Of a DNA stretch of 64,000 nt, positions 2,953-26,376 are shown one piece after another. A model generated the notes under the pieces. It saw nothing but the letters and a program-made list of their open reading frames with translations, did no database searches and was not told the origin of the DNA. The stretch is from a virus. Location of the stretch: positions 62,001 to 126,000 of IMG/VR virus record IMGVR_UViG_3300017917_001524, one strand, 5' to 3'. The first letter of the stretch is position 1, and each line of letters starts with the position of its first letter. A program made the position numbers and the translations under genes.

Positions 2953-5900
2953 ATGCCAAGTTATTTAGATTTCAATACCACTAGTAATTTTAGGGATTTT
3001 TTGATTGGTAGAACATTACAACAACCAAACGGGCCACAAACATTCACATCATCAAGTTACACATATCAAAATTTGAGTGACTTTCCGAATGTCGATCCGG
3101 GTGATGTTGAAACGGTTAGACCACAACAATTACTACAAACACAAACAAGTAATATATTTAAACCACAACAATATTTTATTGTTGATTCGATAAATACTAT
3201 CCCAAGACGTGCAAATTTATCGTTATATCCATATTTTACGGCCGAGAGACATAATTTAATTGGTATTATGTCAAATAGTACATATACCACGGAATCAGAA
3301 TTATTTAAATTCGCTGCGACATATATTAGAGATGATAAAAACGGGCCAGTACAAGCAAGAATATCACAAAACTTACAATCAACAACAAATAGACTTAGAG
3401 TTTTGGATGCTATTAATGGTAACACAAGTACCGCGTTAAATTTATTAACAGGTAGAGAATCCGTATTAGAAAGTAATTATCAAATTACTGTTCAAAAAAC
3501 CATACCGGGGAAGGCGATAGATTTTCTAAAAACAGTATCGGGTGTAGAACTACCTTTTTCGACGATTCCAGGGGATTATTTGAGTAACCCGTCCAATCCT
3601 ATTAACTTTAGACCTGAAGCGTCTACAGAGGTTGGTAGATTGCTACAAGACACTACAGGTGCGTTAGGTTCACTATTGGGTATCCCAAGAAGACCAAAAA
3701 GAGACAGAAAACCGTCAGATTTGTTTATTGAATACATGGGTGATGGACAAAAAAGACAATTATTTAATTTGTTGTCATATTCGAAGTACGCACCAAATTA
3801 TACAACAACTGCAAGATCACAAAACACATCTAAAATATTTAATTTTGTGGATAATGTTGGTCAAGGTGTAAAAAATATATTAGGTATTGAGGCACCTAAT
3901 GGTGTTGCGTATATCGGTGATGATAGGGGTGATGATGTTAGATATGCGATGAATGATTTTAATGATAGACCTGTTAGAGGAACATTTTATCTTTCATTGA
4001 TGTTTGACGAAACACAAGCAAGACTATTCCAAAAAACAAAAAATATTGGTGAGAGCGGTAAAATATCAGGTAATTTAACTTGGATCAGTAAGAATTCAAA
4101 AAATAAGTTAGGTGAAAACAATTCAAGTTATAATGATCAAAGATCTAAATTAGAAGAATCATTATCAACAAAATATGGTTTTAGAGAAGATTCTATATTA
4201 GGTGTAACACAAGAAATGTTAGACTCTATGCCATCTAATGGTGGTGAGGCGAGATCGCATATATCAAATGTTATTGATCAAACAAGTAGGGTTTTTGGTG
4301 AAGGTGACCTTAGAATTTCTAGAGGTTCTGCTGTAAAATATGTTGATAAATTTTCCGGTGAAGAAAGTGGTGTTGAGTATTGTCGTGTTTGGACAAAGGA
4401 CAGACCATATTTTACTATGGACGACACGATGAAAAGAACGTCAAATATTCGAAAATTTGATGATAGTGTTTTAGGTGGGGATAGTAGAGTTTGGAATATT
4501 AATATTGCACCAATGTCAAATGGTAATAAGTCATTTGATGGGTCGACTAATATTGTTGATAATTATGGTTTTGGTGGTGGTTATTATGCTAAAAAATATA
4601 TGTTTTCGATTGAAAATTTGGCATGGAAAACATCAAATAAAGAAGGTTTTACGGTACAAGATTTACCATATTGTGAAAGAGGTTCAAATGGTGGTAGAGT
4701 GATGTGGTTTCCACCATATGATTTAAAATTTTCAGAACAAAACAATGCTAAGTGGGAAGAAAATGTTTTTTTAGGTAGACCTGAACCAATCTATACGTAT
4801 CAAAACACAACAAGATCAGGTAGTATATCTTTCAAGGTTATTGTTGATCACCCAAGTGTATTGAATTTATTGGTTAGAGAACATTTTAAAAATATGTCAG
4901 ATGAAGAGGCTGATAACTACATTCATTCGTTTTTTGCTGGTTGTGAAGACGTTGATTTATATTCATTGGTTAGAAAATACACCACATTAGATGGAAATGA
5001 TTTGGATTTAATTACGAGATATCTAAATAATGGTGTTACTCAACAAATGATAACATCATATAAGCCGGTTATTGATAATGTAACACAAAAAAAAGAAAAC
5101 ACATCAACACAAAATCCAGTAACAACAAATAATGGTGATTCTAAAGAATCTATTAGTGTATCATTAAAATTCATTAATGATAAACCATCAAATAATTCTT
5201 CGTTCAGAAGTGATCTACCATATTCAAAATATTATGACGGATTTACAAGTAATTTTAAAACAAGTTCGGTAAACACTTTAACGTCGACATTAACAAATCT
5301 AATAAAACAATATATCACAAACCCAAATACCGTTACGGTTAAGAATGATATTGCGGTGTTATATGGTAATTCACAACAACCTATCACCACATCAACATCA
5401 GGTGACACGGTTAATAAAACTGTGACCGAATTAAATAGTGTGTATTCTGAATTAGATAATGATTATAATGTTTATGTTGATAAATTAAATAAAATCAAAA
5501 CTGATTTAGAATCAAATATTGTCCGATCAATTACAGTTAATGTTAACTCATCAACATCAGCGATTGCTGATTTATCATATAACATGAGATTATCATATCG
5601 AAGAACATTTAGTATTGTTTGGGATGTGTTAAATCGTTTATCAAAAGTGACGATTGATGAAACATTTTTAAATAAACTTAATTGGACAGGATTTTCAGAC
5701 GTGGACACACAACAAGGATCTAATGTAACCAAAAAATTATCATTAAAAGATTTGGGATATGATACAGATGGAACAATTGAATTTAGAACAATACAAAATG
5801 GTGAAAACTCTAAAGTAGATGGTAAGGATGATTGTAGCAGTAATTTTGAATTCAAATCAAAAGATAATGCAAAAAATTTAAATTTACATGCACCAATATC

Positions 5901-14066: not shown

Positions 14067-14711
14067 ATGTTAGAAAAAAAATTACAAGAAGCTCTTGATC
14101 GTTATAAAAGTATTAACAAATACACCGCAAAATTATTAAAAGAACAAGAAACACCTGCAGAGGAAATTCCACCAGCACCCGAAGGTGATACAGGAGTACC
14201 ATCTGCCCCTGAAGGTACTGATGTTCCACCAGCACCAAGTGAAGATCCTGCGGTTGCAGAACCAGTTGGGGATGTTCCACCGTTACCAGATGAAAGTGAT
14301 GTGGAAGAAATTGACATTACAGATCTTGTTAATATGACTAAGAGTATTAAAAAAGACTTAGAAAATAGTAAACAAGATAATAGTGGTGTAGAAGCTAAGA
14401 TGGATAGTCTTTTTACTAAACTTGATGAGTTGGAACAAAAGTTATCACAAATGGATAACATTATATCAAGAATCGATGAGTTAGGGTCAAAAATCGATAA
14501 TGTTAAACCTAAAACACCGGAAGAAAAATTAGAAATGAGATCATTAGACTCATATCCATTTAGTCAAAATCCAAAAGAATTTTTTAATGACAAACAACAA
14601 CAAATGAAGATGTCAGGTAAAAATGAATATGTTTTAACAAAGAACGATGTTCAAAGTTATACACCATCGGAAATAATGAAATCTTTTAATCCTTCAACAA
14701 ATGAATATTAG
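14067..14711 (+). CDS. Coiled-coil protein with Pro/Glu-rich linker, function unknown
   Basis: 214 residues in three parts. Residues 1-30 form a basic helix (LEKKLQEALDRYKSINKYTA). Residues 31-85 are an acidic linker rich in Pro, Ala and Glu with repeats of the PPAPE/VPPAP type. Residues 85-150 form a heptad-type coiled coil (MDSLFTKLDELEQKLSQMDN). The C-terminus is polar. This architecture suits a virion linker, scaffold or tail-assembly factor, but nothing identifies it. Its last 11 bases overlap the next gene. Confidence 0.65.
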   Translation: MLEKKLQEALDRYKSINKYTAKLLKEQETPAEEIPPAPEGDTGVPSAPEGTDVPPAPSEDPAVAEPVGDVPPLPDESDVEEIDITDLVNMTKSIKKDLENSKQDNSGVEAKMDSLFTKLDELEQKLSQMDNIISRIDELGSKIDNVKPKTPEEKLEMRSLDSYPFSQNPKEFFNDKQQQMKMSGKNEYVLTKNDVQSYTPSEIMKSFNPSTNEY

Positions 14712-15075
14712 TACTAATGTAAATTTTTTATTGGGTTTACAAACACAATTAAAAGTATTTCATTGGCAAACAAATGTTTTTTCAAGACATGAAGCATTTG
14801 GTAAAATATATGACGAAATTGACGGTTTAATTGATGATTTTGTTGAACAAGCAATGGGTAAATATGGTAGATTTAAATTAGATGATGAAACTAAAACAGT
14901 TACATTAACTAATTTAGATGAAATGAACATTAAAGGGTTTTTAGATACCGTGGCAGATGCTTTGGTACAATTTACCGATATTTTAGATGAAAAGGATACT
15001 AACTTATTAAATATTCGAGATGAGATATTGGGGTTAATATATAAGTTGTCCTATCTTCTCACATTAAAGAAATAG
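14701..15075 (+). CDS. DUF5856-like / Dps-like ferritin-fold protein
   Basis: 124 residues. The N-terminal pattern LGLQTQLKVFHWQTNVFSRH, then a FGKIYDEIDGLIDDFVEQAM helix, matches the phage family DUF5856, which has the four-helix arrangement of Dps/ferritin proteins (FHWQT...H...ID..ID.F.E). Those residues line the ferroxidase-type site in Dps, but whether this protein binds metal or DNA is unknown. It overlaps the upstream coiled-coil gene and is followed by a strong terminator, so it is the last gene of this late unit. Confidence 0.7.
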   Translation: MNISTNVNFLLGLQTQLKVFHWQTNVFSRHEAFGKIYDEIDGLIDDFVEQAMGKYGRFKLDDETKTVTLTNLDEMNIKGFLDTVADALVQFTDILDEKDTNLLNIRDEILGLIYKLSYLLTLKK

Positions 15076-15098
15076 AAAAAAAATTAAAAAAAAACTTG

Positions 15099-15128
15099 AA
15101 GTCAGATTTTGTATCTGACTTTTTTTTT
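15099..15128 (+). terminator. Intrinsic terminator after the first late block
   Basis: A 9-bp perfect stem AAGTCAGAT / ATCTGACTT (15099-15107 with 15113-15121) with loop TTTGT, followed by an uninterrupted run of T. It separates the tail block from the SSB gene. An upstream in-frame extension of the SSB frame begins inside this hairpin and is therefore not the real start. Confidence 0.85.
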
Positions 15129-15168
15129 ACTATATTATATTACAAACTTAAACTTTAAATTTTATAAC

Positions 15169-16017
15169 ATGTCAACATTAGATTCAGTACTTGCACAGTA
15201 CGAAAAAAACAAAAAAAAGACAACTAACACCACTTACACAAAAGTATCAGACGAAGAAAGATTAAAAAAGTATTTTAATGCGGTATTACCTAAAGGGGTA
15301 GAAACGTTGGAAAAAAGAATCAGAATTCTTCCAACAAAAGATGGTTCTACACCATTTGTGGAAGCAAATTTCCACGACATTTATGTGGATGGTAAATCAG
15401 TTAAATTGTATGATCCTGAACAGGACGGTGAAAGATCACCACTTAATGAAACAAAAGAAATTCTTGAAATGTCAACCGACCCAAAAGATGTTGAAGTTGC
15501 AAAAGATTATCGTTCAAAAAAATTCTACATCGTAAAATTGATTGACAGAGATAAAGAGAATGATGGCCCGAAATTTTGGAGATTTAAACATAATGGTAAA
15601 GGTGAAGGTACATTAGATAAAATCATCCCAATTTGGAGAAATAAGGGAGATATTACCGACCCAATTGAAGGACGTGACCTTATTTTGACTTTATCATTGA
15701 TGAAATCAAATAAAGGTAATGAATATACTGTGGTGAGCGCTGTGATTCCTGAAGATAAAGGTCCGTTACATAGTGATCCTGAGATTGCAAAACAATGGAT
15801 GGAAGATCCGATGACTTGGTTAGATGCGTTCCCTAAAAAATCTGTTGAATATCTTGAAATCATAGCTTCAGGGGATGTTCCAAAGTGGAATAACGACTTG
15901 AAAAAGTGGGTTCCAAAATCAAATGGAGAAACAGGTGAAATTAGTTTGGGATCACCAAATGTAAGTATTGAAGACCCACAATCAGATGATGATGTTAGTG
16001 ATGAATTACCCTTTTAA
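15169..16017 (+). CDS. Single-stranded DNA-binding protein, gp32-like
   Basis: 282 residues. The basic N-terminus (LAQYEKNKKK) is followed by a gp32-type core: KRIRILPTKDGSTPFVEANF, then a FYIVKLIDRDKENDGPKFWR segment. It ends in an acidic tail DDDVSDELPF, like the protein-interaction tip of SSBs. It coats ssDNA during replication and recombination and would recruit UvsX and the helicase encoded next to it. T4 gp32 has 301 residues. No zinc-binding Cys cluster is present, unlike T4 gp32. The ATG at 15169 is chosen because the frame upstream runs into the terminator. Confidence 0.85.
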   Translation: MSTLDSVLAQYEKNKKKTTNTTYTKVSDEERLKKYFNAVLPKGVETLEKRIRILPTKDGSTPFVEANFHDIYVDGKSVKLYDPEQDGERSPLNETKEILEMSTDPKDVEVAKDYRSKKFYIVKLIDRDKENDGPKFWRFKHNGKGEGTLDKIIPIWRNKGDITDPIEGRDLILTLSLMKSNKGNEYTVVSAVIPEDKGPLHSDPEIAKQWMEDPMTWLDAFPKKSVEYLEIIASGDVPKWNNDLKKWVPKSNGETGEISLGSPNVSIEDPQSDDDVSDELPF

Positions 16018-16022
16018 ATAAT

Positions 16023-16080
16023 AAGAACTTGGGTGTTTAGTATAATGAATTATCAATATTAATCATCCAAGTTCTTTTTT
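16023..16080 (+). terminator. Intrinsic terminator after the SSB gene
   Basis: Stem AAGAACTTGGGTG (16023-16035) with CATCCAAGTTCTT (16064-16076), 13 bp with one G-U pair and a 28-base loop, followed by TTTT. The loop is long but the stem is strong. It would let SSB be made in excess over the downstream UvsX. Confidence 0.75.
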
Positions 16081-16098
16081 TACAAAAAAATTAATAGA

Positions 16099-17091
16099 AT
16101 GTCAAAAAGTATAAAGAAAAAAGAGTTTAACTATAAAGAAAAGTTCTCATCAAAAACAAAATATAAAGAAACGAATTACTATTTCTGTGGTGAACCGTTT
16201 TTAAATGCGTGTGGACTCCCTGGACCTGTTATGGGTGGAATTAATATGTTTTTGGGTCACTCAAACTCATCAAAAACAACTGCACTTGTATTGGCAGCGG
16301 CTGACGCACAAAGAAGAGGACATTTACCGGTATTCATTATTACAGAAAAGAAATGGAGTTGGGAACATGCGGTTGAATTGGGTTTACAGGCAGAAAAAGA
16401 TAGTAATGGTGAATGGGATGGTGATTTCATTTTTAACGATAGTTTTGATTATATTGAACAAGCAACTGACTTTATAAATGAAGTTTTAGATGCACAGGAA
16501 AAAGGTGAGATTGACAGATCAATACTATTCTTATGGGATTCTATTGGATCTATACCGTGTAAAATGACCTTTGAAGGTAAAGGTGGTAAAATGCACAATG
16601 CTGCTGTTCTTGCGGATAAAATTGGTATGGGAATTCATTCAAGAATTTCAAAATCTAAGAAAGAAGATTATCCATTTATTAATACATTGGTTATTGTTAA
16701 CCAACCATGGGTAGATTTACCTGATAACCCATTCGGTCAACCTGAAATTAAGGCTAAGGGTGGTGAAGCGGTATGGTTGGCATCTTCACTTGTTTTCTTA
16801 TTTGGAAATCAGAAGAAAGCGGGAATCAGTCATATTGAAGCACAAAAAGATGGTAGAAAGGTGTCATACGCTATTAGAACTAAGATTTCAATTTTGAAAA
16901 ACCATGTTAATGGTCTTGGATATAAGGATGGAAAAATAATTGCGGTTCATAATGGTTATATTGACGCAACTAAAGAGGCCGAAGATGAGTATAAGAAGTT
17001 GTATTCAAGTTATTGGTCACAAAAATTGGGTGGTGATTTTAGTTTAATTGAATCAACGTCAAGTAATGAAGAAGAAGAAATCGAAGGATAA
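16099..17091 (+). CDS. uvsX: UvsX/RecA-like recombinase
   Basis: 330 residues. The P-loop is GHSNSSKT at residues 53-60, a divergent Walker A like that of T4 UvsX, with RecA-fold segments PVFIITEKKWSWEHAVELGL and SILFLWDSIGSIP (Walker B) following. The later LVIVNQPWVDLPDNPFG segment corresponds to the RecA L1/L2-side core. It forms filaments on ssDNA coated by the adjacent gp32-like protein and drives strand exchange and recombination-dependent replication. The C-terminus is acidic (SSNEEEEIEG). The last 26 bases overlap a small zinc-ribbon gene. Confidence 0.9.
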   Translation: MSKSIKKKEFNYKEKFSSKTKYKETNYYFCGEPFLNACGLPGPVMGGINMFLGHSNSSKTTALVLAAADAQRRGHLPVFIITEKKWSWEHAVELGLQAEKDSNGEWDGDFIFNDSFDYIEQATDFINEVLDAQEKGEIDRSILFLWDSIGSIPCKMTFEGKGGKMHNAAVLADKIGMGIHSRISKSKKEDYPFINTLVIVNQPWVDLPDNPFGQPEIKAKGGEAVWLASSLVFLFGNQKKAGISHIEAQKDGRKVSYAIRTKISILKNHVNGLGYKDGKIIAVHNGYIDATKEAEDEYKKLYSSYWSQKLGGDFSLIESTSSNEEEEIEG

Positions 17092-17269
17092 CGAATCCAA
17101 ATTTATTTGGGGAAAGTGTATTGACTGTGATTTTGAAGGTCATGTTGATGAATTTGAATTTGACGAGGAATACAATGAATTCAATGGTCACGTATATAAA
17201 CAACCATATTGCCCCAAATGTGGTGGTGGGGTTGAATTGAATGATGTAACAAATATTGATAACATATAA
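17066..17269 (+). CDS. Small zinc-ribbon protein overlapping uvsX
   Basis: 67 residues from the ATG at 17066; an earlier in-frame TTG is less likely. Two CxxC knuckles are visible: KCIDCDFEGH near residue 16 and YCPKCGGG near residue 50. The linker between them is very acidic (DEFEFDEEYNEF). This is a classic four-cysteine zinc ribbon, probably binding a nucleic acid or a replication protein. It overlaps the end of uvsX and lies 10 bases before the 5' nuclease gene, so it is made together with the recombination and replication proteins. No named family is recognised. Confidence 0.75.
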   Translation: MKKKKSKDNESKFIWGKCIDCDFEGHVDEFEFDEEYNEFNGHVYKQPYCPKCGGGVELNDVTNIDNI

Positions 17270-17279
17270 ATAAAGATGA

Positions 17280-18299
17280 ATGTCAACATTATTAGTTGAT
17301 GGTGATAATCTATTAACAATTGGGTTTTACGGGGTTAAAAACTACTTTTATAAGGGGCAACATATTGGGGGAATATATCATTTCCTCAATACCCTTAGAA
17401 GGTTTATAGAGCAACAAAAAATTGATAAGATTGTTGTTTTTTGGGATGGTGAAGACGGTGCGATACAAAGGAAAAGAGTTTACCCAAATTATAAGATCAA
17501 AAGAAAAGATAGGGTTAAAAGTGAACATGAAATAAATTCATATAACTATCAAAGATTTCGTGTAAAACAATATCTTGAAGAGATATATGTTAGACAGGGT
17601 GAATATTCACATTGTGAAACTGATGATTGTATTGCATACTATTCACAAAACACCCCCAATGAGCAAAAGATAATTTTTTCGTCTGATGGTGATCTAACAC
17701 AACTTGTGTCAGAAAATACAATTTTATACAATCCATCACATTCAAAATTTTACAAACCAAACGATACGTATGTGTATCGACATGAAGAAGTTTTAATTGA
17801 AAATGTTAAGATAATTAAGATACTTTGCGGTGACCCATCTGATGATATTTATGGTATTAGAAATTTTGGAATTAAAAGACTTTTGAGTATATTTCCAGAA
17901 GTGAAAACAACACCATTAACAATCGATGAAATTAGGGGAAAACTAAACATCTTATTTGAAGATGATAAGTCGAATAATATCGTCAAAAATATTATGACGG
18001 GAGTAACTAAGGAAGGTGTATTTGGGGATGAATTTTTTCAAATTAATCAGAACATAGTTAGTTTGGATGGTCAGTTTTTAACTGATGAAGCCGTTGAGGA
18101 CATAAATGTGTTAATTAACGATAATATTGATCCTGAAGGTAGATCATATAAAAACGCAATAAAATTAATGATAGAAGATGGTCTATTTCAAGTATTACCA
18201 AAAAAAGATGATGCGTGGGTAACATTTTTAAACCCATTTTTAAGATTAACAAGAAAAGAAAAGAATAAAAAAACAATTAAATTTAGAAACCATGAGTAA
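17280..18299 (+). CDS. 5'-3' exonuclease / RNase H, T4 Rnh-like (FEN/PIN fold)
   Basis: 339 residues. The acidic metal-binding residues of the FEN/5' nuclease fold appear in order: LLVDGDNL at 4-11, VVFWDGEDGAIQRKRVYPNYK at about 53-73, ETDDCIAYY near 116, SSDGDLTQLV near 138, and CGDPSDDIYGIRNFGIKR near 190, the helix-hairpin-helix segment. T4 Rnh (305 residues) removes RNA primers and flaps at lagging-strand junctions, and this protein probably does the same. The preceding stop overlaps a TATAAATA that may be chance. The last 8 bases overlap the next gene. Confidence 0.85.
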   Translation: MSTLLVDGDNLLTIGFYGVKNYFYKGQHIGGIYHFLNTLRRFIEQQKIDKIVVFWDGEDGAIQRKRVYPNYKIKRKDRVKSEHEINSYNYQRFRVKQYLEEIYVRQGEYSHCETDDCIAYYSQNTPNEQKIIFSSDGDLTQLVSENTILYNPSHSKFYKPNDTYVYRHEEVLIENVKIIKILCGDPSDDIYGIRNFGIKRLLSIFPEVKTTPLTIDEIRGKLNILFEDDKSNNIVKNIMTGVTKEGVFGDEFFQINQNIVSLDGQFLTDEAVEDINVLINDNIDPEGRSYKNAIKLMIEDGLFQVLPKKDDAWVTFLNPFLRLTRKEKNKKTIKFRNHE

Positions 18300-18741
18300 A
18301 AATCAAAAAGTAACAAAATTCGAATTTTTGTTAACGTTAGAAGGACAAATTATTTGTCAAAGATATTTTAATGTTGAAGACCATAATCCGGCCAGTAGAC
18401 GATCACTTGATTTACATGATTATGTAAAACAAATTTGTGACGAAATTTCACATGATTTGAAAATAAAAAGTTCCGATTTTATATATCACAATCAGAATTT
18501 TATATGGAATAACGATAATGTGGAAAAATCAAATGTGAATAAATATGAGAATTATTTGTTGGAAATTAAGATAGGTGATGAAGTATTTATTCAAAGAATC
18601 TTTCCGGCCCACTATTATCATCCAATGGTAAGATATACTGTTGATATTAGACCAATGTTAAAAAGATTTTTATCAGAATTGACTGATATTTTATCATCTG
18701 AAGAGGTGGTTACAACGTATTTAGATTACGAATTAAATTAA
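18292..18741 (+). CDS. Conserved-looking replication-cluster protein, function unknown
   Basis: 149 residues without recognisable enzyme motifs. The N-terminal FEFLLTLEGQIICQRYFNVE and the central IGDEVFIQRIFPAHYYHPMV segments alternate hydrophobic and charged residues like a compact alpha/beta domain. It overlaps the 5' nuclease gene by 8 bases and lies 10 bases before the helicase gene, so a role at the replication fork, for instance as a loader or adaptor, is possible. That is inferred only from context. Confidence 0.7.
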   Translation: MSKNQKVTKFEFLLTLEGQIICQRYFNVEDHNPASRRSLDLHDYVKQICDEISHDLKIKSSDFIYHNQNFIWNNDNVEKSNVNKYENYLLEIKIGDEVFIQRIFPAHYYHPMVRYTVDIRPMLKRFLSELTDILSSEEVVTTYLDYELN

Positions 18742-18751
18742 AAATAGAAAT

Positions 18752-20137
18752 ATGAAAGAAAAGAATTTTGGTCAATTAGGAATGTCGTTTCAACAATCTT
18801 TGATAAAAACAATTATTGAAGATAAGAAGTATGGTGAGAATATTATTGATGTAATTGAAAGCAAATATTTTGACAATAACTCTTTTAAGTATATAATGGA
18901 AAACTTAAAAGAGTTATATAAAAAATATGAAAAGATCCCAACGTATGATACATTACAACAAAAAATAATGTCTGAAAACATTAATAGTGATGTTGCAAAA
19001 GTTCATATTGATACGTTAGAAATTATTAAAAATCTTGAACAAAGTACCCAATATGTTAAAGACACCGCATTGAATTTTTGTAAACAACAAAATTTAAGAC
19101 GGGTAATTAAAACGGTAAACAGCATTATTGATAATGGTCAGTTTGAAGAATATTCAAAGATTGAGGAGATTGTACAAAAAGCACTTCAAGTCGGTTCAGA
19201 TGAAAATGAACCAACAGATGTTTTTGATGATATTGAAGGAGCGTTAAGAAAAGATTTTAGACATCCGATTCCAACAGGTATTGATGGAATTGACTCAGTT
19301 TTAAAGGGTGGTATTGGTAAAGGTGAGTTAGCGGTATTACTTGCACCAACTGGGGTGGGTAAAACAACATATTTAACAAAAGTTGCAAATAGTGCTTATA
19401 ACTATGGTTGTAATGTTTTACAAATCATTTTTGAGGACAATAAAGAACAAATTAAAAGAAAACACTATACAATTTGGTCAGGTATTGCACCTGATGATCA
19501 ATCAGACAATGAGGATCAAGTGTTATTTAGTGTTAGAGAAGCTCAGAATAATTCCAACGGGGTACTAAAAATCTTAAAGTTAGATAGTGATTCGTTAACA
19601 ATTTCAGGATTGAAAACGATGCTTAGAAAATACTTTTCAAATGGGTTTAACATTGATTTATTGGTGTTAGATTATGTTGATTGTGTGATTCCTGAACGTT
19701 CATATGGTGATGAATGGAAAGGTGAGGGATCGATTATGAGGGGTCTTGATGGAATTGCGAGTGAGTTTAATATTGCTATTTGGACTGCGACACAGGGTAA
19801 TCGTGAATCTATCGCATCTGAAGTCGTAACAACAAATCAAATGGGAGGATCAATTAAAAAGGCACAAGTTGGTCACGTGATAATTTCTGTTGGTAAAACA
19901 TTAGAACAAAAAGAACATAATTTGGCGACAATCACAATTTTAAAATCGAGAATTGGTCGTGATGGAATTATATTTCAAAATTGTACGTACAATAATGAAT
20001 ATTTAGATATTAATACCGATAGTCAAAATACATTATTAGGTCACGAAGAACAAAAAAATGAAGATAGAGCAAATCGAGTTAAAAATGCATTTCTGAAGAG
20101 ACAAAATATGAAAAAAGATAATAATACCGAAATATAG
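18752..20137 (+). CDS. Replicative DNA helicase, DnaB/gp41-like
   Basis: 461 residues. An N-terminal helical domain (1-150) is followed by a RecA-type ATPase. The Walker A is APTGVGKTT at about 198-206, after a GIDGIDSVLKGGIGKGELAV segment typical of DnaB/KaiC ATPases. DLLVLDYVDCV is the Walker B, and the TATQGNRES segment follows. T4 gp41 (475 residues) is the hexameric fork helicase that works with a primase, and a primase-like gene lies at 42.9 kb. The gene has a normal ATG after an A-rich leader and is separated from the reductase gene by 43 bases. Confidence 0.9.
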   Translation: MKEKNFGQLGMSFQQSLIKTIIEDKKYGENIIDVIESKYFDNNSFKYIMENLKELYKKYEKIPTYDTLQQKIMSENINSDVAKVHIDTLEIIKNLEQSTQYVKDTALNFCKQQNLRRVIKTVNSIIDNGQFEEYSKIEEIVQKALQVGSDENEPTDVFDDIEGALRKDFRHPIPTGIDGIDSVLKGGIGKGELAVLLAPTGVGKTTYLTKVANSAYNYGCNVLQIIFEDNKEQIKRKHYTIWSGIAPDDQSDNEDQVLFSVREAQNNSNGVLKILKLDSDSLTISGLKTMLRKYFSNGFNIDLLVLDYVDCVIPERSYGDEWKGEGSIMRGLDGIASEFNIAIWTATQGNRESIASEVVTTNQMGGSIKKAQVGHVIISVGKTLEQKEHNLATITILKSRIGRDGIIFQNCTYNNEYLDINTDSQNTLLGHEEQKNEDRANRVKNAFLKRQNMKKDNNTEI

Positions 20138-20180
20138 ACAAAAAATAAAAGAATAAAACAAAGAAAATACAAAAAAAAGA

Positions 20181-23100
20181 ATGCAAAAAGGAAAAAAGTT
20201 TTTGAGTGACTTGAAATTACACTCAGATTATTTTAAATGGTTGGAAAATCTTGGTCGTTATGAAACATGGGATGACGCATGTGAAGACATAATTAATGGA
20301 CATAGACTCAAATATGCGGAGTATTCAAGTGAAATCGAACCATATTTGTTATCTGCATTGGAAAGTATGAAAGAACAATCAGTTCTAGCATCACAAAGAA
20401 ATTTACAATACAGATATCCACAAATTATGAAACATAACACAAGAATGTTTAATTGTACCAGTGGACACATTGCTAGAAATCGTGTATTCCAAGAAATTTT
20501 TTATTTGGCGTTATCTGGTTGTGGTTTTGGTGGTGGATTATTAATCCCATTTGTAAACAATTTAAGTAGAATTCAAAAAAGAACATTGGGTACAAAAACA
20601 TTTGTTGTACCTGATAGTATTGAAGGATGGTCAGACGCTTTAGGGGTTTTAATGTCATCATATTTTGTTGACAAACAACCTTTCCCTGAATATGCAGGTT
20701 ATGAGGTTAAATTTGACTATTCCTTGATTAGAGAAAAGGGCGCATTTATTAGTGGTGGTTTTAAAGCCCCTGGTCCTGATGGTCTAAAACAATCCTTAGA
20801 AAGAATCGAAACATTAATTGAAAAATGGATCGATAAGGAAGGTAATAAAATAAGACCAATCTTGGCTTTTGACATTATTTGTCATTCGGCTGATGCGGTA
20901 TTGTCAGGTGGTGTTCGTCGATCTGCATTGAATATGATCGTAGATCCTAATGATGATGAAATGATTCACGCTAAAACGGGTAACTGGAGAAGTGAGAACC
21001 CACAACGTGCTAGAAGTAACAATTCCGTATTGTTATTGAGAGGAGAAGTAATCAAAGAACAATTTGAATATTTGGTTAAATTGAATGATGGTGATAATGA
21101 CATTGGTTTTGTGTTTGCAAATAGTTGGTTTGACATGTTTAACCCATGTGTTTCTAACGACACATTAATAAACACTCCAAAGGGTTTATTTTTACCATCA
21201 CAATTAAGTGATAATACATCAATTGTATTAAATTCACAAATTTTTGAATCTAAAGGTTTTAGACAAACAGGAATTAAACCTGTGTATGAAATTGAGACAG
21301 AATTTGGTCGTAAAATTAAAGTAACAGGGGAACATGTGATGTATACAAAAAATGGAATGGTAAGTGCGTCACAATTAAATATTGGTGATGTTTTAACTGT
21401 AACAAACAATGTCGATATAGATTTTACACATGATGAAAATGATGAATTTAAGAAAGGATATTTAGTTGGTGCATTATTAGGTGATGGTAATTTTTCAAAT
21501 ACTTATGCACAAATTAAATTTTGGGGTGAGAATAATAACATCTACCATAATAAAATGTTGACATATTTGAATGATTTAGGATGGTCATCAAAGAAAAAAG
21601 AAAATTTATTTTTAGAGGAAGAAAAAGATGGTTATACACTTTTCAATTCTAAAGAACTATATGAATTTATTAAAAACAAAGACTATTCCGTAATTGATGA
21701 AAAACGTTTAACTAAAAAACTTTTATCAGGTTCATTTGATTATATTAATGGTGTTATTTCAGGTTATTTTGACGCTGAAGGTACCGTGATATTGAATAAA
21801 GAAAAGGGTAATTCAATTAGAATTACGTCAACACAGTTAGAGAATCTTGAGAATTTACAAATTGCTTTAAATTCATTTGGTGTTTATTCTAAGATTTATA
21901 AATTCAGAAATAAAACATTAAATGGTGTAAACAATTTACCAGATGGTAATGGTGGAACAAAAGAATATGTTGTTAAACCATCACATGAATTAGTAATTAC
22001 GAATGTTTCAATTAAGAAGTTTAATTCATTAGGATTTTTAAACATTAAAAAACGTGAAACAATTAATTTGATATTATCATCATATGTTCGTGATTTCAAT
22101 AAAACAACATATGAAGAAGTTATAACCAGTATTAACTATATCGTTAAGTCTGAAGATGTTTATGATTGTGAAGTACAATCCGGTGTGGAATCTTTTGATT
22201 GTAATGGTTTTTATGTACATAATTGTTTTGAAATTTTAAAAATACCAGTATTGATGAATGTTGATTTTTCAAAAATTCATTATAACGATATCGAAGAGTT
22301 TGTGAGAACAAATAACGATAAATTTGGTATTCAGGGATGTAATTTGACCGAAATCAACGCTGAAAAGGCAACAACAAAAGAAAAGTTCTTTAAGGCTTGT
22401 AGAGACGCATCTATTTTGGGGACATTGCAAGCGGGTTACACTAATTTTCCGTATTTAGGTGAGACAACAAAAAAGATATTTGAAAAAGAATCTTTGTTAG
22501 GTGTTAGTATCACAGGATGGATGAATAATCCAAAATTGTTTAACGCTGAATTATTGAAAGAAGGTGCTGAAGTAGTTAAAAAAACAAATAAAGAGGTTGC
22601 ACAAATAATTAACATTAATCAAGCAGCACGTACTACTTGTGTAAAACCATCTGGTAACGCGTCTGTTGTGTTAGGAACAGCTTCGGGTATCCACCCTGAA
22701 CATTCTGAAAAATATTTTAGAATTATGCAACTTAATAAAGAAAGTAACACCGCAAAATGGTTGACAGAAAATATGCCATTCTTATTAGAAGAAAGTGTAT
22801 GGTCATCAACAAATAGTGATTATGTTGTTTTTGTTCCAGTTGAAAACCCAAAACAAGGTTTATTCAAGAAGGATATGAAAGGAATTAAACACTTGGAGTT
22901 GATTAAGTTAGTACAACAAAATTGGGTTAACGAAGGTACTAATCCTGAATTATGTACATATTCACCTGTTAACCACAATACGAGTTGCACGGTTATTATT
23001 GACGATAAGGATCAAATTGTAGATTATATTTGGGACAACAGGGAACATTTCACCGCGGTTAGTTTCTTAGGTGATTACGGTGATAAAGATTTCAATCAAG

Positions 23101-23531
23101 CACCATTTACATCAGTATTAAACCTTGAAGATATTGTTCAAGAATATGGTAAAGGTTCTGTATTGGCATCAGGTTTAGTTGTTGATGGTTTACATTATTT
23201 CAATGATAACTTATGGTTAGCGTGTGACACATTACTGAGTCAGAATACTGATAAACCAATACCTGTGACAGGAACAAGAGAACAAGTATTATTGAAAGAC
23301 TATTGGTTAAAGAGAGCGAAAAAATTTGCTAAGAATTACTTTAAAGGTGATTTGAAAAAAATGGTTTATTGTTTAAAAGATGTTCATCTTTTCCATAAAT
23401 GGGAAACCATTACTCGTCAGTTTAAAGAAGTGAATTTTGGTGAAATTTTGGATAAACCACAATTTAAAGACATATCAGATTACGCGGCACAAAGTTGTTC
23501 GGGAGGTGCTTGTGATATAACACGTATATAA
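20181..23531 (+). CDS. nrdJ: Class II (cobalamin-dependent) ribonucleotide reductase with in-frame intein
   Basis: 1116 residues as translated; about 757 remain after removal of a 359-residue intein (323-681). The extein parts match the monomeric adenosylcobalamin-dependent triphosphate reductase. They include MFNCTSGHIARN (first redox Cys), GVRRSALNM, an NP-C-FEI active-site loop rebuilt across the intein junction, GIQGCNLTEIN (second redox Cys, residue 720), CVKPSGNASVVLGTASGIHP and a C-terminal CSGGAC pair that would be reduced by thioredoxin-type donors. The enzyme supplies dNTPs for phage replication and would need host vitamin B12. It is last in the replication block apart from the small DUF5522 gene. 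No separate small subunit is expected for this class. Confidence 0.88.
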   Translation: MQKGKKFLSDLKLHSDYFKWLENLGRYETWDDACEDIINGHRLKYAEYSSEIEPYLLSALESMKEQSVLASQRNLQYRYPQIMKHNTRMFNCTSGHIARNRVFQEIFYLALSGCGFGGGLLIPFVNNLSRIQKRTLGTKTFVVPDSIEGWSDALGVLMSSYFVDKQPFPEYAGYEVKFDYSLIREKGAFISGGFKAPGPDGLKQSLERIETLIEKWIDKEGNKIRPILAFDIICHSADAVLSGGVRRSALNMIVDPNDDEMIHAKTGNWRSENPQRARSNNSVLLLRGEVIKEQFEYLVKLNDGDNDIGFVFANSWFDMFNPCVSNDTLINTPKGLFLPSQLSDNTSIVLNSQIFESKGFRQTGIKPVYEIETEFGRKIKVTGEHVMYTKNGMVSASQLNIGDVLTVTNNVDIDFTHDENDEFKKGYLVGALLGDGNFSNTYAQIKFWGENNNIYHNKMLTYLNDLGWSSKKKENLFLEEEKDGYTLFNSKELYEFIKNKDYSVIDEKRLTKKLLSGSFDYINGVISGYFDAEGTVILNKEKGNSIRITSTQLENLENLQIALNSFGVYSKIYKFRNKTLNGVNNLPDGNGGTKEYVVKPSHELVITNVSIKKFNSLGFLNIKKRETINLILSSYVRDFNKTTYEEVITSINYIVKSEDVYDCEVQSGVESFDCNGFYVHNCFEILKIPVLMNVDFSKIHYNDIEEFVRTNNDKFGIQGCNLTEINAEKATTKEKFFKACRDASILGTLQAGYTNFPYLGETTKKIFEKESLLGVSITGWMNNPKLFNAELLKEGAEVVKKTNKEVAQIININQAARTTCVKPSGNASVVLGTASGIHPEHSEKYFRIMQLNKESNTAKWLTENMPFLLEESVWSSTNSDYVVFVPVENPKQGLFKKDMKGIKHLELIKLVQQNWVNEGTNPELCTYSPVNHNTSCTVIIDDKDQIVDYIWDNREHFTAVSFLGDYGDKDFNQAPFTSVLNLEDIVQEYGKGSVLASGLVVDGLHYFNDNLWLACDTLLSQNTDKPIPVTGTREQVLLKDYWLKRAKKFAKNYFKGDLKKMVYCLKDVHLFHKWETITRQFKEVNFGEILDKPQFKDISDYAAQSCSGGACDITRI
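21147..22223 (+). other. Intein with LAGLIDADG endonuclease, inside the reductase gene
   Basis: The protein segment 323-681 has all splicing blocks: Cys1 in CVSNDTLINTPKG, a TGEH block B motif, C-terminal YVHN ending in His-Asn, and Cys as the first extein residue. The two LAGLIDADG helices are YLVGALLGDGNF (about 427) and ISGYFDAEGTV (about 526), so a homing endonuclease is embedded and looks intact. The +1 cysteine is the catalytic NP-C residue of the reductase, so the enzyme cannot act until the intein leaves. Codon use and base composition look like the surrounding phage DNA, suggesting long residence. Confidence 0.9.
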
Positions 23532-23532
23532 T

Positions 23533-23706
23533 ATGTTAGTACAGGGTGTCGATTATTATATTGATGAACATACCGGATTAATGGTATTAACGTCATATTA
23601 TCACGAGAAAAGGGGTTATTGTTGTGGTAACAAATGTAGAGAATGTTGTTACACCCCAAAACACATAAAAGGAAATACCAACATAAAAAAGTCTAGTGAA
23701 AACTAG
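23533..23706 (+). CDS. DUF5522-family small cysteine-rich protein
   Basis: 57 residues, starting 2 bases after the reductase stop. The order is VDYYIDEHTGLMVLTSYYHE, then RGYCCGNKCRECCY, which is the DUF5522 pattern (usually RGYCCGNGCRHCPY) common in Bacteroidota. The four or five clustered cysteines probably bind a metal. The usual HCPY is ECCY here. Function is unknown. The stop codon lies inside the right arm of the following terminator. It is a useful indicator of a Bacteroidota host. Confidence 0.8.
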   Translation: MLVQGVDYYIDEHTGLMVLTSYYHEKRGYCCGNKCRECCYTPKHIKGNTNIKKSSEN

Positions 23707-23715
23707 ACTTTTTTT
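23689..23715 (+). terminator. Intrinsic terminator after the reductase/DUF5522 unit
   Basis: A 9-bp perfect stem AAGTCTAGT / ACTAGACTT (23689-23697 with 23702-23710) closed by a GAAA tetraloop and followed by TTTTT. It overlaps the last codons and the TAG stop of the DUF5522 gene. The A-run on the left could also support termination on the other strand. Confidence 0.9.
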
Positions 23716-23722
23716 ATTCTGA

Positions 23723-23730
23723 TATTTATT
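23723..23730 (+). promoter_or_regulatory. Putative late promoter, TATTTATT
   Basis: TATTTATT preceded by A, 3 bases before the ATG at 23734 and just after the terminator. This marks the switch from the replication block to the late baseplate block. Confidence 0.55.
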
Positions 23731-23733
23731 AAT

Positions 23734-24063
23734 ATGAATAGAATTAGTTTTGAACAAGAACATTTGGATCACTATGATGGACAAGATAATTATGAACTTG
23801 GGGTATATGAAGATGGTGAAGTAATGGGATATGTACAATATGTCATATACAAAAATGAAATAACTATTAGTGATATTGTTGTTAGACCTACAAGAAGAAG
23901 AGAAGGGTTTGGATCTATGTTAGTTAAAAAAATGAAAGAACTACATCCTGAATCAACATATGTACCATCATATAAAACAGAATTAGGTTCTAAATTTATT
24001 CATAAAGACGTAAAAATAAACGAAGAAATAAATAGAATAATGAATTTGATGAAGTTCTTGTAG
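23734..24063 (+). CDS. GNAT-type acetyltransferase-like protein
   Basis: 109 residues. The strand pair YELGVYEDGEVMGYVQYV is followed by ITISDIVVRPTRRREGFGSM, which carries the acetyl-CoA pyrophosphate-binding signature RRxGxG of GNAT motif A, then a LVKKMKEL helix. It is shorter than a full GNAT (about 140), so the C-terminal lobe is reduced. The substrate is unknown. It stands alone between a terminator and the gp25 gene, with its own late octamer, so it is expected to be made late, perhaps modifying virion or host proteins. Relatives also occur as uncharacterised phage acetyltransferases. Confidence 0.7.
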   Translation: MNRISFEQEHLDHYDGQDNYELGVYEDGEVMGYVQYVIYKNEITISDIVVRPTRRREGFGSMLVKKMKELHPESTYVPSYKTELGSKFIHKDVKINEEINRIMNLMKFL

Positions 24064-24078
24064 ACTATCATTCACAAC

Positions 24079-24103
24079 TATTTATTTGTTTACTATATTT
24101 ATT
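24079..24103 (+). promoter_or_regulatory. Two tandem putative late promoters before gp25
   Basis: TATTTATT occurs twice, at 24079-24086 and 24096-24103, 17 bases apart. The second ends 3 bases before the ATG at 24107. Doubling of the motif before the gp25-gp6 unit is unique in this window. Confidence 0.55.
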
Positions 24104-24106
24104 AAC

Positions 24107-24544
24107 ATGGCGACAACGTATGGTATTGATTATCCATTTAGAGATAGTTTAAAAGGTGATTTTTTAAATATGACTGACACACCTGAAAAGGAAGTCAGAG
24201 CGAATTTAATACACCTATTATTAACTAAGAGAGGTAGTAGATATTTCTTACCTGATTTTGGTACAAGAATATATGAATACATTTTTGACCAAAATGATAT
24301 GACAAGTTGGAATCTTATTGAAAGTGAAATTAGAGAATCAATCAAAAAATATATCCCAAATTTAGACATTAATTCAATTGAAGTTGTATCAGCAGAAAAT
24401 GATATGACGGAAATAAATGGAAATGTGGAATCTTTTAGCTTTTCTGAACAATCGGTAAAACCATATACTGCGAAGGTGAAAATCGATTATACAGTAAATA
24501 ATGGAGCGTTTTCATCATCAGATTTTATAATTATTAATATATAA
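24107..24544 (+). CDS. Baseplate wedge protein gp25-like
   Basis: 145 residues from the ATG at 24107; an earlier in-frame TTG at 24086 would place the start between the two promoter octamers and is rejected. The family pattern is clear: GIDYPFRDSL at the N-terminus, VRANLIHLLLTKRGSRYFLP near 35-55, then DFGTRIYEYIFD. gp25 (GPW_gp25 family) forms the inner ring of the wedge and starts sheath assembly. It ends with TAATG, so gp6 begins in the last base of its stop codon, the usual gp25-gp6 pair of contractile systems. Confidence 0.88.
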   Translation: MATTYGIDYPFRDSLKGDFLNMTDTPEKEVRANLIHLLLTKRGSRYFLPDFGTRIYEYIFDQNDMTSWNLIESEIRESIKKYIPNLDINSIEVVSAENDMTEINGNVESFSFSEQSVKPYTAKVKIDYTVNNGAFSSSDFIIINI

Positions 24545-26376
24545 TGAGCAAGAAAATAAATTATTCGGTTAGAGATTTTGCAGGATTAAGGCAAGAATTA
24601 GTAACACTAACAAGGGAGTATTATCCCGATTTAATTAATAATACTAATGATGCGTCAATTTATTCCGTGTTATTGGATTTAAATGCGGCAATTGCGGATA
24701 ACTTACATTTTCATATTGATAGGGTTTGGCAAGAAACAATGTTAGATTTTGCACAACAAAGACAATCGTTGTTTTTTATTGCGAAAACATATGGAATAAA
24801 AATTCCGGGTAACAGACCGTCAGTTGCGTTATGTGATTTTTCAATAAATGTTCCTGTAAGAGGTGACAAAGAAGATGAAAGATATTTGGGTATATTGAAA
24901 TCAGGGGCACAAGTTTCTGGTGGTGGACAAGTATTCGAAACAGTAAACGATATTGATTTTTCTGTACCATATAATGATAGAGGCGAACCAAATAGATTAA
25001 AAATTCCAAATTTTGATAGTAATAATCAGTTGATTTCATACACCATCATTAAACGTGAACCCGTTGTGAATGGTACTACAAGAATATATCGTAGAGTAAT
25101 TACCGATTTAGACCAAAAACCATTTTTAAAATTATATTTACCTGAACAAAATGTTCTTGGTGTAACATCTGTTATCCATAAGGATGGGACAAATTTTGTT
25201 AGTAATCCAACATCGGCAGAATTCAATTCAACACAAAATAAATGGTATGAAGTAAAATCACTTATCCAAGATAAAGTTTTTGTTTCAGACCCAACATCAA
25301 TATCTGATACAGAAAATTTTAAGTCGGGAACATATATAAATGTTACAAATAAGTTCATGACAGAATATACACCTGAAAACTATTTTTCATTAACCTTTGG
25401 TTCAGGAAATGTTGATCCAATGGATAATTTGGACAACTATATGACGGGTAATTTAAAAGTCAACTTATCGAATTATTTGAACAATATTTCATTAGGTAGA
25501 ATACCAAGAGCAGGGTCAACAATTTTTGTTAAATATAGGATTGGTGGAGGTAAAAATAGTAATTTAGGTGTTAATGTTATTAATAGTGTTGACAATATTG
25601 AATTTAATGTATTAGGGCCGAATAATAGTGTTAATACACAAGTAATCAATTCATTAAGGGTGTCAAACGTCACTCCAGCAATTGGTGGGGCAGATCAACC
25701 AACAATCGAAGAAATTCGAAATATGGTTGCATATAACTTTGCGGCACAAAATAGAGCGGTAACATTAAATGATTATAAATCTATTATCGAAAATATGCCA
25801 TCAACATATGGTGCACCTGCAAAAGTTAATGTGATGGAAGAAGATAATAAAGTTAGGGTTAAGGTGTTATCATATGACGATAGAGGTAATTTATCAAGTG
25901 TGGTCTCAGAAACGTTAAAAAACAATATTATCAATTATTTGTCAGAATACAGAATGATTAATGATTATATTGACATTCTTAGTGGTGAAGTGATTGATTT
26001 GGGTTTAGAAATAGATGTTGTAATTGATAAAAATGAAACACCAACAAATATACTAACAAGTATTATTACACAAACAACAGAATTTTTTAGGATTGATAAA
26101 AGAAAAATGGGTGATCCATTATTTTTGGGTGATTTATATCGTGAATTAGGTGGTATAAATGGTGTAATCAACGTTGTCGATGTTAGAGTATTTGGTTTAG
26201 TTGGCGGTGAATATTCAGGAAACGAAGTATCACAAAGTTATGCAGATCCAGTAACAAAAGAAATACAACAAAGTGATATGGCGATATATATGAAATCAAA
26301 TCAAATTTATCAAATTAGATTCCCAAATAAAGACATCAAAGTTAGAATTAAAACATTAGGATCGACTACATTTTAA
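24544..26376 (+). CDS. Baseplate wedge protein gp6-like (baseplate J family)
   Basis: 610 residues (T4 gp6 is 660). N-terminal VRDFAGLRQELVTLTREYYP, then the J-family core ADNLHFHIDRVWQETMLDFA, and the characteristic GGADQPTIEEIRNMVAYNFA and RAVTLNDYKSIIENMPSTYG segments near residues 375-425. Gp6 forms the inner wedge ring with gp25 and gp7 and drives the sheath-contraction switch. Its start overlaps the gp25 stop by one base. The C-terminal RIKTLGSTTF ends 54 bases before the next late unit. Confidence 0.88.
   Translation: MSKKINYSVRDFAGLRQELVTLTREYYPDLINNTNDASIYSVLLDLNAAIADNLHFHIDRVWQETMLDFAQQRQSLFFIAKTYGIKIPGNRPSVALCDFSINVPVRGDKEDERYLGILKSGAQVSGGGQVFETVNDIDFSVPYNDRGEPNRLKIPNFDSNNQLISYTIIKREPVVNGTTRIYRRVITDLDQKPFLKLYLPEQNVLGVTSVIHKDGTNFVSNPTSAEFNSTQNKWYEVKSLIQDKVFVSDPTSISDTENFKSGTYINVTNKFMTEYTPENYFSLTFGSGNVDPMDNLDNYMTGNLKVNLSNYLNNISLGRIPRAGSTIFVKYRIGGGKNSNLGVNVINSVDNIEFNVLGPNNSVNTQVINSLRVSNVTPAIGGADQPTIEEIRNMVAYNFAAQNRAVTLNDYKSIIENMPSTYGAPAKVNVMEEDNKVRVKVLSYDDRGNLSSVVSETLKNNIINYLSEYRMINDYIDILSGEVIDLGLEIDVVIDKNETPTNILTSIITQTTEFFRIDKRKMGDPLFLGDLYRELGGINGVINVVDVRVFGLVGGEYSGNEVSQSYADPVTKEIQQSDMAIYMKSNQIYQIRFPNKDIKVRIKTLGSTTF

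Follow-up and report, generated by a model that had tools for sequence, protein, structure and literature searches.

Why should an intein interrupt a phage ribonucleotide reductase (RNR) directly before the cysteine on which catalysis depends: does splicing time the enzyme, or is the position an ordinary one for inteins of this kind? The question is raised by a reading frame of 1116 codons on the plus strand, 20181–23531, in a 64,000-nucleotide stretch of viral DNA ('the window', by which we mean the whole stretch analysed). The frame has no internal stop and is that of a monomeric B12-type (class II) ribonucleotide reductase, predicted to be 757 aa long once spliced, with the junction ...FDMFNP-CFEI.... 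Its parts, with the basis for each, are these:

20181..21146 (+), N-extein of the class II RNR, residues 1–322, ending ...MFNP (TIGR02505 match; alignment chain to 1L1L)
20454–20456 (+), Cys92 codon, equivalent to Cys119 of RTPR, within the N-extein (alignment chain to 1L1L)
21147..22223 (+), intein, 359 aa, class 1 (Cys1 ... His-Asn), with a LAGLIDADG endonuclease inside (Pfam, empty sites, AlphaFold, Foldseek)
21324..21335 (+), block B TGEH (intein T60–H63), which activates the N-terminal splice junction (alignment)
21441..21485 (+), first LAGLIDADG helix, ending in the catalytic Asp, intein D113 (model helix 99–113)
21735..21779 (+), second LAGLIDADG helix, FDAEG, with terminal acid Glu, intein E211 (model helix 197–211; alignments)
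21936..21956 (+), LPDGNGG motif (intein 264–270), signature of the RNR intein family at NP/C and NL/C, the slash marking the insertion (alignment)
22158..22223 (+), blocks F and G, VYDCEV...ESFDCNGFYVHN, with Glu where block F usually has His (alignments)
22224..22226 (+), Cys682 codon, where Cys+1 of the splicing reaction is also the thiyl-radical cysteine, equivalent to RTPR Cys408 (alignment chain to 1L1L)
22224..23531 (+), C-extein of the class II RNR, with the C-terminal SCSGGAC pair (alignment chain to 1L1L)
22338–22340 (+), Cys720 codon, equivalent to Cys419 of RTPR, within the C-extein (alignment chain to 1L1L)

Against TIGR02505, the family of adenosylcobalamin-dependent triphosphate reductases, the exteins score 112 bits where the cut-off is 340, a shortfall that we put down to the interrupting intein and to divergence. 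With equivalents of Cys119, Cys408 and Cys419, a C-terminal cysteine pair and this family match, the enzyme is, to judge from its sequence, a distant member of the NrdJm/RTPR family. Its neighbours (14067–26376) are replication and baseplate genes: a gp32-like SSB, a RecA-like protein, a 5'–3' exonuclease and a DnaB-like helicase precede the reductase, in that order, and a GNAT protein, gp25 and a weak baseplate J match follow it.

Which cysteine the intein abuts was settled by a chain of alignments. Direct profile alignment of the window's clade to the Lactobacillus leichmannii enzyme (1L1L) stopped short of the NPC region, and we therefore went from the window to the extein of Thermus phage G20c, and from there to 1L1L by phmmer against PDB sequences. 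With 1L1L residues counted from the printed alignment coordinates, the G20c extein places NPC at 406–408, CNL from 419 and NC at 118–119, and the window reductase aligns with G20c in identical columns. Since the two alignments agree, Cys682 corresponds to Cys408 of L. leichmannii RTPR, the thiyl-radical cysteine of that enzyme; by the same route Cys92 corresponds to Cys119 and Cys720 to Cys419, the redox pair. The insertion lies directly before the radical cysteine, and the sequence-only reading was right that splicing rebuilds NP-C-FEI around it. An uninterrupted relative (L007) yields a structural model (pLDDT 88) whose first structure match is 1L1L, with TM 0.63/0.66.

The intein itself is exactly where that reading had placed it, at 21147–22223, as Pfam domains, canonical splice residues and base-exact empty sites agree, the last giving the strongest check. 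Two Pfam families score above their cut-offs in the frame: Intein_splicing (43.2 bits against 35.8) and LAGLIDADG_3 (PF14528; 60 bits against 22.5). Cys1 is residue 323 (codon 21147–21149), the C-terminal His-Asn is residues 680–681 (22218–22223), and with the TxxH of block B and HN/C at the downstream junction the residues are those of a class 1 intein. Among 25 aligned inteins, T60 and H63 are invariant, as are P265, D266, G267, G269 and G270 of the signature motif, and D113 is conserved at 90% or more. Block F has Glu for His in the window intein and in its counterparts from L093 and L285; that His is common in class 1 inteins, not universal, and hence not decisive. Both of the LAGLIDADG helices that had been described are present, each with an acidic end (D113, E211), the second acid being Glu rather than the usual Asp found in L093 and L285. 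In the AlphaFold model (pLDDT 90.4), helices 99–113 and 197–211 carry the LAGLIDADG motifs, and Foldseek matches the model to the endonuclease-bearing inteins TliVMA, PI-PfuI and PI-SceI. PI-PfuI of Pyrococcus (1DQ3) has the same Hint plus LAGLIDADG fold (E 2e-14), but it is archaeal, 454 aa long and 15% identical, and presumably sits at a different RNR site from NP/C.

Between the window intein and that of L093, dN is 0.25 and dS about 1.2, near saturation. With dS so close to saturation, dN is nonetheless well below it in the endonuclease and splicing parts alike, and on these sequences the endonuclease part, like the splicing parts, is under purifying selection. An attempt to date intein against extein by dS was dropped, since dS was saturated. 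The window intein is real and, from its sequence, probably functional, and its predicted homing endonuclease, with both helices present, is plausibly active, in keeping with the earlier suggestion of active homing. Glu for the block F His, or Glu for the second catalytic Asp, could in either case lower activity.

Relatives without the intein are many. Both extein halves are present in 77 of 80 viral relatives, which are 82–89% identical over the C-extein, and in all 77 the two halves are exactly 0 nt apart; in the other three the reductase is cut by the end of the contig. In a wider search a further 69 matches proved uninterrupted, some of them on contigs already represented, and a few were interrupted. 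Only two independent contig groups among the close phage relatives have an allelic intein: L093, on the same contig as L283, and L285/L286, with inteins respectively 64% and 66% identical to the window's. In a tree of 46 exteins, grouping the three carriers as one clade is rejected (AU p 4e-64), and the carrier L093 and the empty L017 are sisters. Repeated gain or loss would be needed, between which the tree does not separate, and this suits homing. From the empty relatives and the scatter of the carriers it follows that the insert is dispensable and, it appears, mobile.

We consider it very likely (probability about 0.92) that the locus harbors a mobile class 1 intein at the RNR catalytic-cysteine site, one that splices to leave an intact reductase and spreads by homing. 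The 1116-aa precursor would be made whole, and the intein would then fold. Judging from the residues present, Cys1 would take the N-terminal junction despite the proline at –1, the chain would pass to Cys682, and Asn681 would cyclize; the product would be a scarless class II reductase of 757 aa, with Cys682 then serving as its thiyl-radical cysteine. The unspliced precursor would presumably be inactive. The LAGLIDADG endonuclease would cut the conserved codons around NP/C in intein-free copies, and homing would carry the intein from phage to phage and, in the longer run, from one RNR subclass to another. We detected no benefit of the intein to the phage in the present analyses; it may persist, we propose, because an inexact deletion, falling on an active-site codon, would leave the enzyme dead.

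Is the insertion point, then, peculiar to this phage? Searching viral contigs with the window intein as a single protein gave no matches, because its peptide patterns are lineage-specific; searching with an intein alignment succeeded, and returned 71 viral loci and 80 of 156 GTDB genome loci, marked by [LM]PDG[NK]GG. With one exception, all 145 inteins with readable ends lie directly before the catalytic cysteine, at NP/C in class II enzymes and NL/C in class I, the 145 being members of a single family, found by its conserved motif and with ends read by the expected flanks, rather than all RNR inteins. The exception (L117, 3998–5113) apparently lies one codon downstream, NPC/S with Ser+1, in register with the split intein NrdJ-1, and so avoids the proline at –1. 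Hosts include SPbeta bnrdE, SPbeta-like NrdE of Staphylococcus, G20c NrdJm, archaeal reductases and those of many bacterial phyla; 19 of 20 matched phage records are RNRs by annotation or reading, or unannotated copies of the SPbeta type. The inteins most closely related to the window's likewise interrupt RNRs at the catalytic cysteine. In three loci (L161, L162, L163), an intein of the same family with the motif LMPDGKGG lies outside the site, in what looks like NrdB.

By sequence comparison, then, the site is not new: phages, bacteria and archaea all use it, and the sequence-only reading's question whether the point was already known is answered by SPbeta bnrdE, G20c NrdJm and the other RNR inteins that share it. 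Allele rir1-b is an RNR large-subunit intein of Halobacteria and many Bacteria (PMC4071816), and our NP/C hosts match its taxa: Halobacteria, beta-, gamma- and zeta-Proteobacteria, and Synergistetes (PMC4071816). NP/C is probably rir1-b, the letter b being inferred from these taxa. Both are RNR large-subunit sites common to bacteria and archaea, but the hosts of rir1-b are cellular RNRs (PMC4071816) whereas here the intein sits in a monomeric class II enzyme encoded by a phage. Closer in that respect is Thermus phage G20c NrdJm, in which a likely intein has been noted (PMC6459318): phage, monomeric class II, and identically inserted (NP/C...N/CAEI), although its intein is about 27% identical to the window's, shorter, and has Gly for the penultimate His. 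The SPbeta/SPBc2 bnrdE intein, 26–31% identical within the group, shares the homologous catalytic cysteine (NL/C) and an LPDGKGG motif, and differs in its class Ib host, its penultimate Gly and its –1 Leu. NrdJ-1 occupies the same reductase motif, with native exteins NPC and SEI, but it is split and is used with Ser+1, one codon downstream at NPC/S (PMC13123727).

The lineage has also crossed between RNR subclasses, repeatedly as far as the sequences tell. The intein tree (63 rows) requires 10 subclass changes where the minimum is 2, by labels assigned from motifs, ten of them checked with NCBIfam, so that single labels may be wrong; in the same tree, the class I inteins as one clade are rejected (AU p 1e-5). 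The inteins of L158 (monomeric class II) and L148 (dimeric class II) are 46% identical, whereas their exteins are 23% identical over a short stretch (E 0.005). Likewise, the inteins of the window and L096 are 34% identical, and their exteins have no significant match to one another.

Proline is native at –1 in 101 of the 145 readable inteins, and in 89 of the 108 non-redundant ones at NP/C or NL/C, and yet –1 Pro disrupts the splicing of NrdJ-1 (PMC13123727). This is the one real biochemical puzzle at NP/C.

Other active-site cysteines are occupied as well. In L285/L286 (frame from 1434), a second intein precedes the Cys419 equivalent (GIQG/C...KQ/CNLTEIN) and ends in Gln, so that one reductase carries two, before its Cys408 and Cys419 equivalents; in L279 (about 3777–4571), an intein precedes the Cys119 equivalent (MFN/C...GN/CTSTHI). 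The window's phage clade thus has, as we read the sequences, inteins at all three active-site cysteines. Among other RNRs, an intein occupies the Cys419 site in L101 and the Cys119 site in L095; three class I relatives (L090, L111, L128) have one at a conserved N-terminal cysteine that we take for the redox cysteine. Splicing requires Cys, Ser or Thr at +1, and the codons where homing endonucleases endure are the most conserved ones. Catalytic cysteines satisfy both constraints, which is why they serve as intein sites, and why the splicing nucleophile and the catalytic residue come to be the 'same atom'. That intein sites are conserved, active centers included, is established generally (PMC2814812, PMC5050341).

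Several further inserts came to light in passing. L094 (frame from 3014) has a second intein at KPEG/TSSS, with Thr at +1, beside the one at NP/C. One 310.5-kb phage record (L002, L003, L004) holds three more intein genes, in apparent catalytic motifs: a terminase, before CDVSRGD; an SNF2-like helicase, at the Walker A GVGK/T, where the intein begins with Ala; and a DNA polymerase B, in the D/TD motif. In phage KLEP7 (L092, about 1150–1390), some 200 nt split the reductase into two annotated frames within or beside the catalytic-cysteine codon. We suspect a group I intron, which the exon ends would suit; Rfam gave no match at this split locus at E 0.1, and only a chance match over 361 bases.

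Might splicing nevertheless act as a switch, responsive to redox state, temperature or stage of infection, that times both dNTP supply and the gain of the radical cysteine? Cys+1 is the catalytic cysteine; –1 Pro and the block F Glu could make the junction a difficult one and slow its splicing; two additional cysteines in the intein, 341 and 352, could join a redox trap; and slow splicing is known for phage inteins whose catalytic residues are altered (PMC5050341). Against this, the 77 close relatives do without an intein, the empty L017 stands beside the carrier L093, and carriers are scattered in the manner of a parasite. We found nothing to link dNTP timing to splicing, as had been suggested, and nothing supports a special or regulatory placement, the residue being the same in 144 of 145 readable family members, in RNR classes I and II; a switch is accordingly very improbable. 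That the intein is a decaying relic, its splicing lost, or its splicing kept and its homing lost, we hold hardly credible: Glu stands at the second LAGLIDADG acid and block F has lost its His, but the frame is open, the essential residues are all kept, both domains show a dN far smaller than dS, three carriers share the block F Glu despite their divergence, I-DmoI uses Glu (E117) as a catalytic acid in that second position, and an intein unable to splice would abolish the reductase.

The mobile intein of the window, taken singly, is thus an ordinary one, a further example of a known RNR intein site. Its family is of wider interest: one lineage appears to have moved between RNR subclasses that can hardly be aligned, by way of the catalytic-cysteine codon. 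The native –1 Pro, which is reported to spoil splicing in another intein, is of practical use. And RNR offers a clean test of the view that what draws inteins to catalytic cysteines is the rule of the +1 nucleophile together with conservation of the site, and not regulation.
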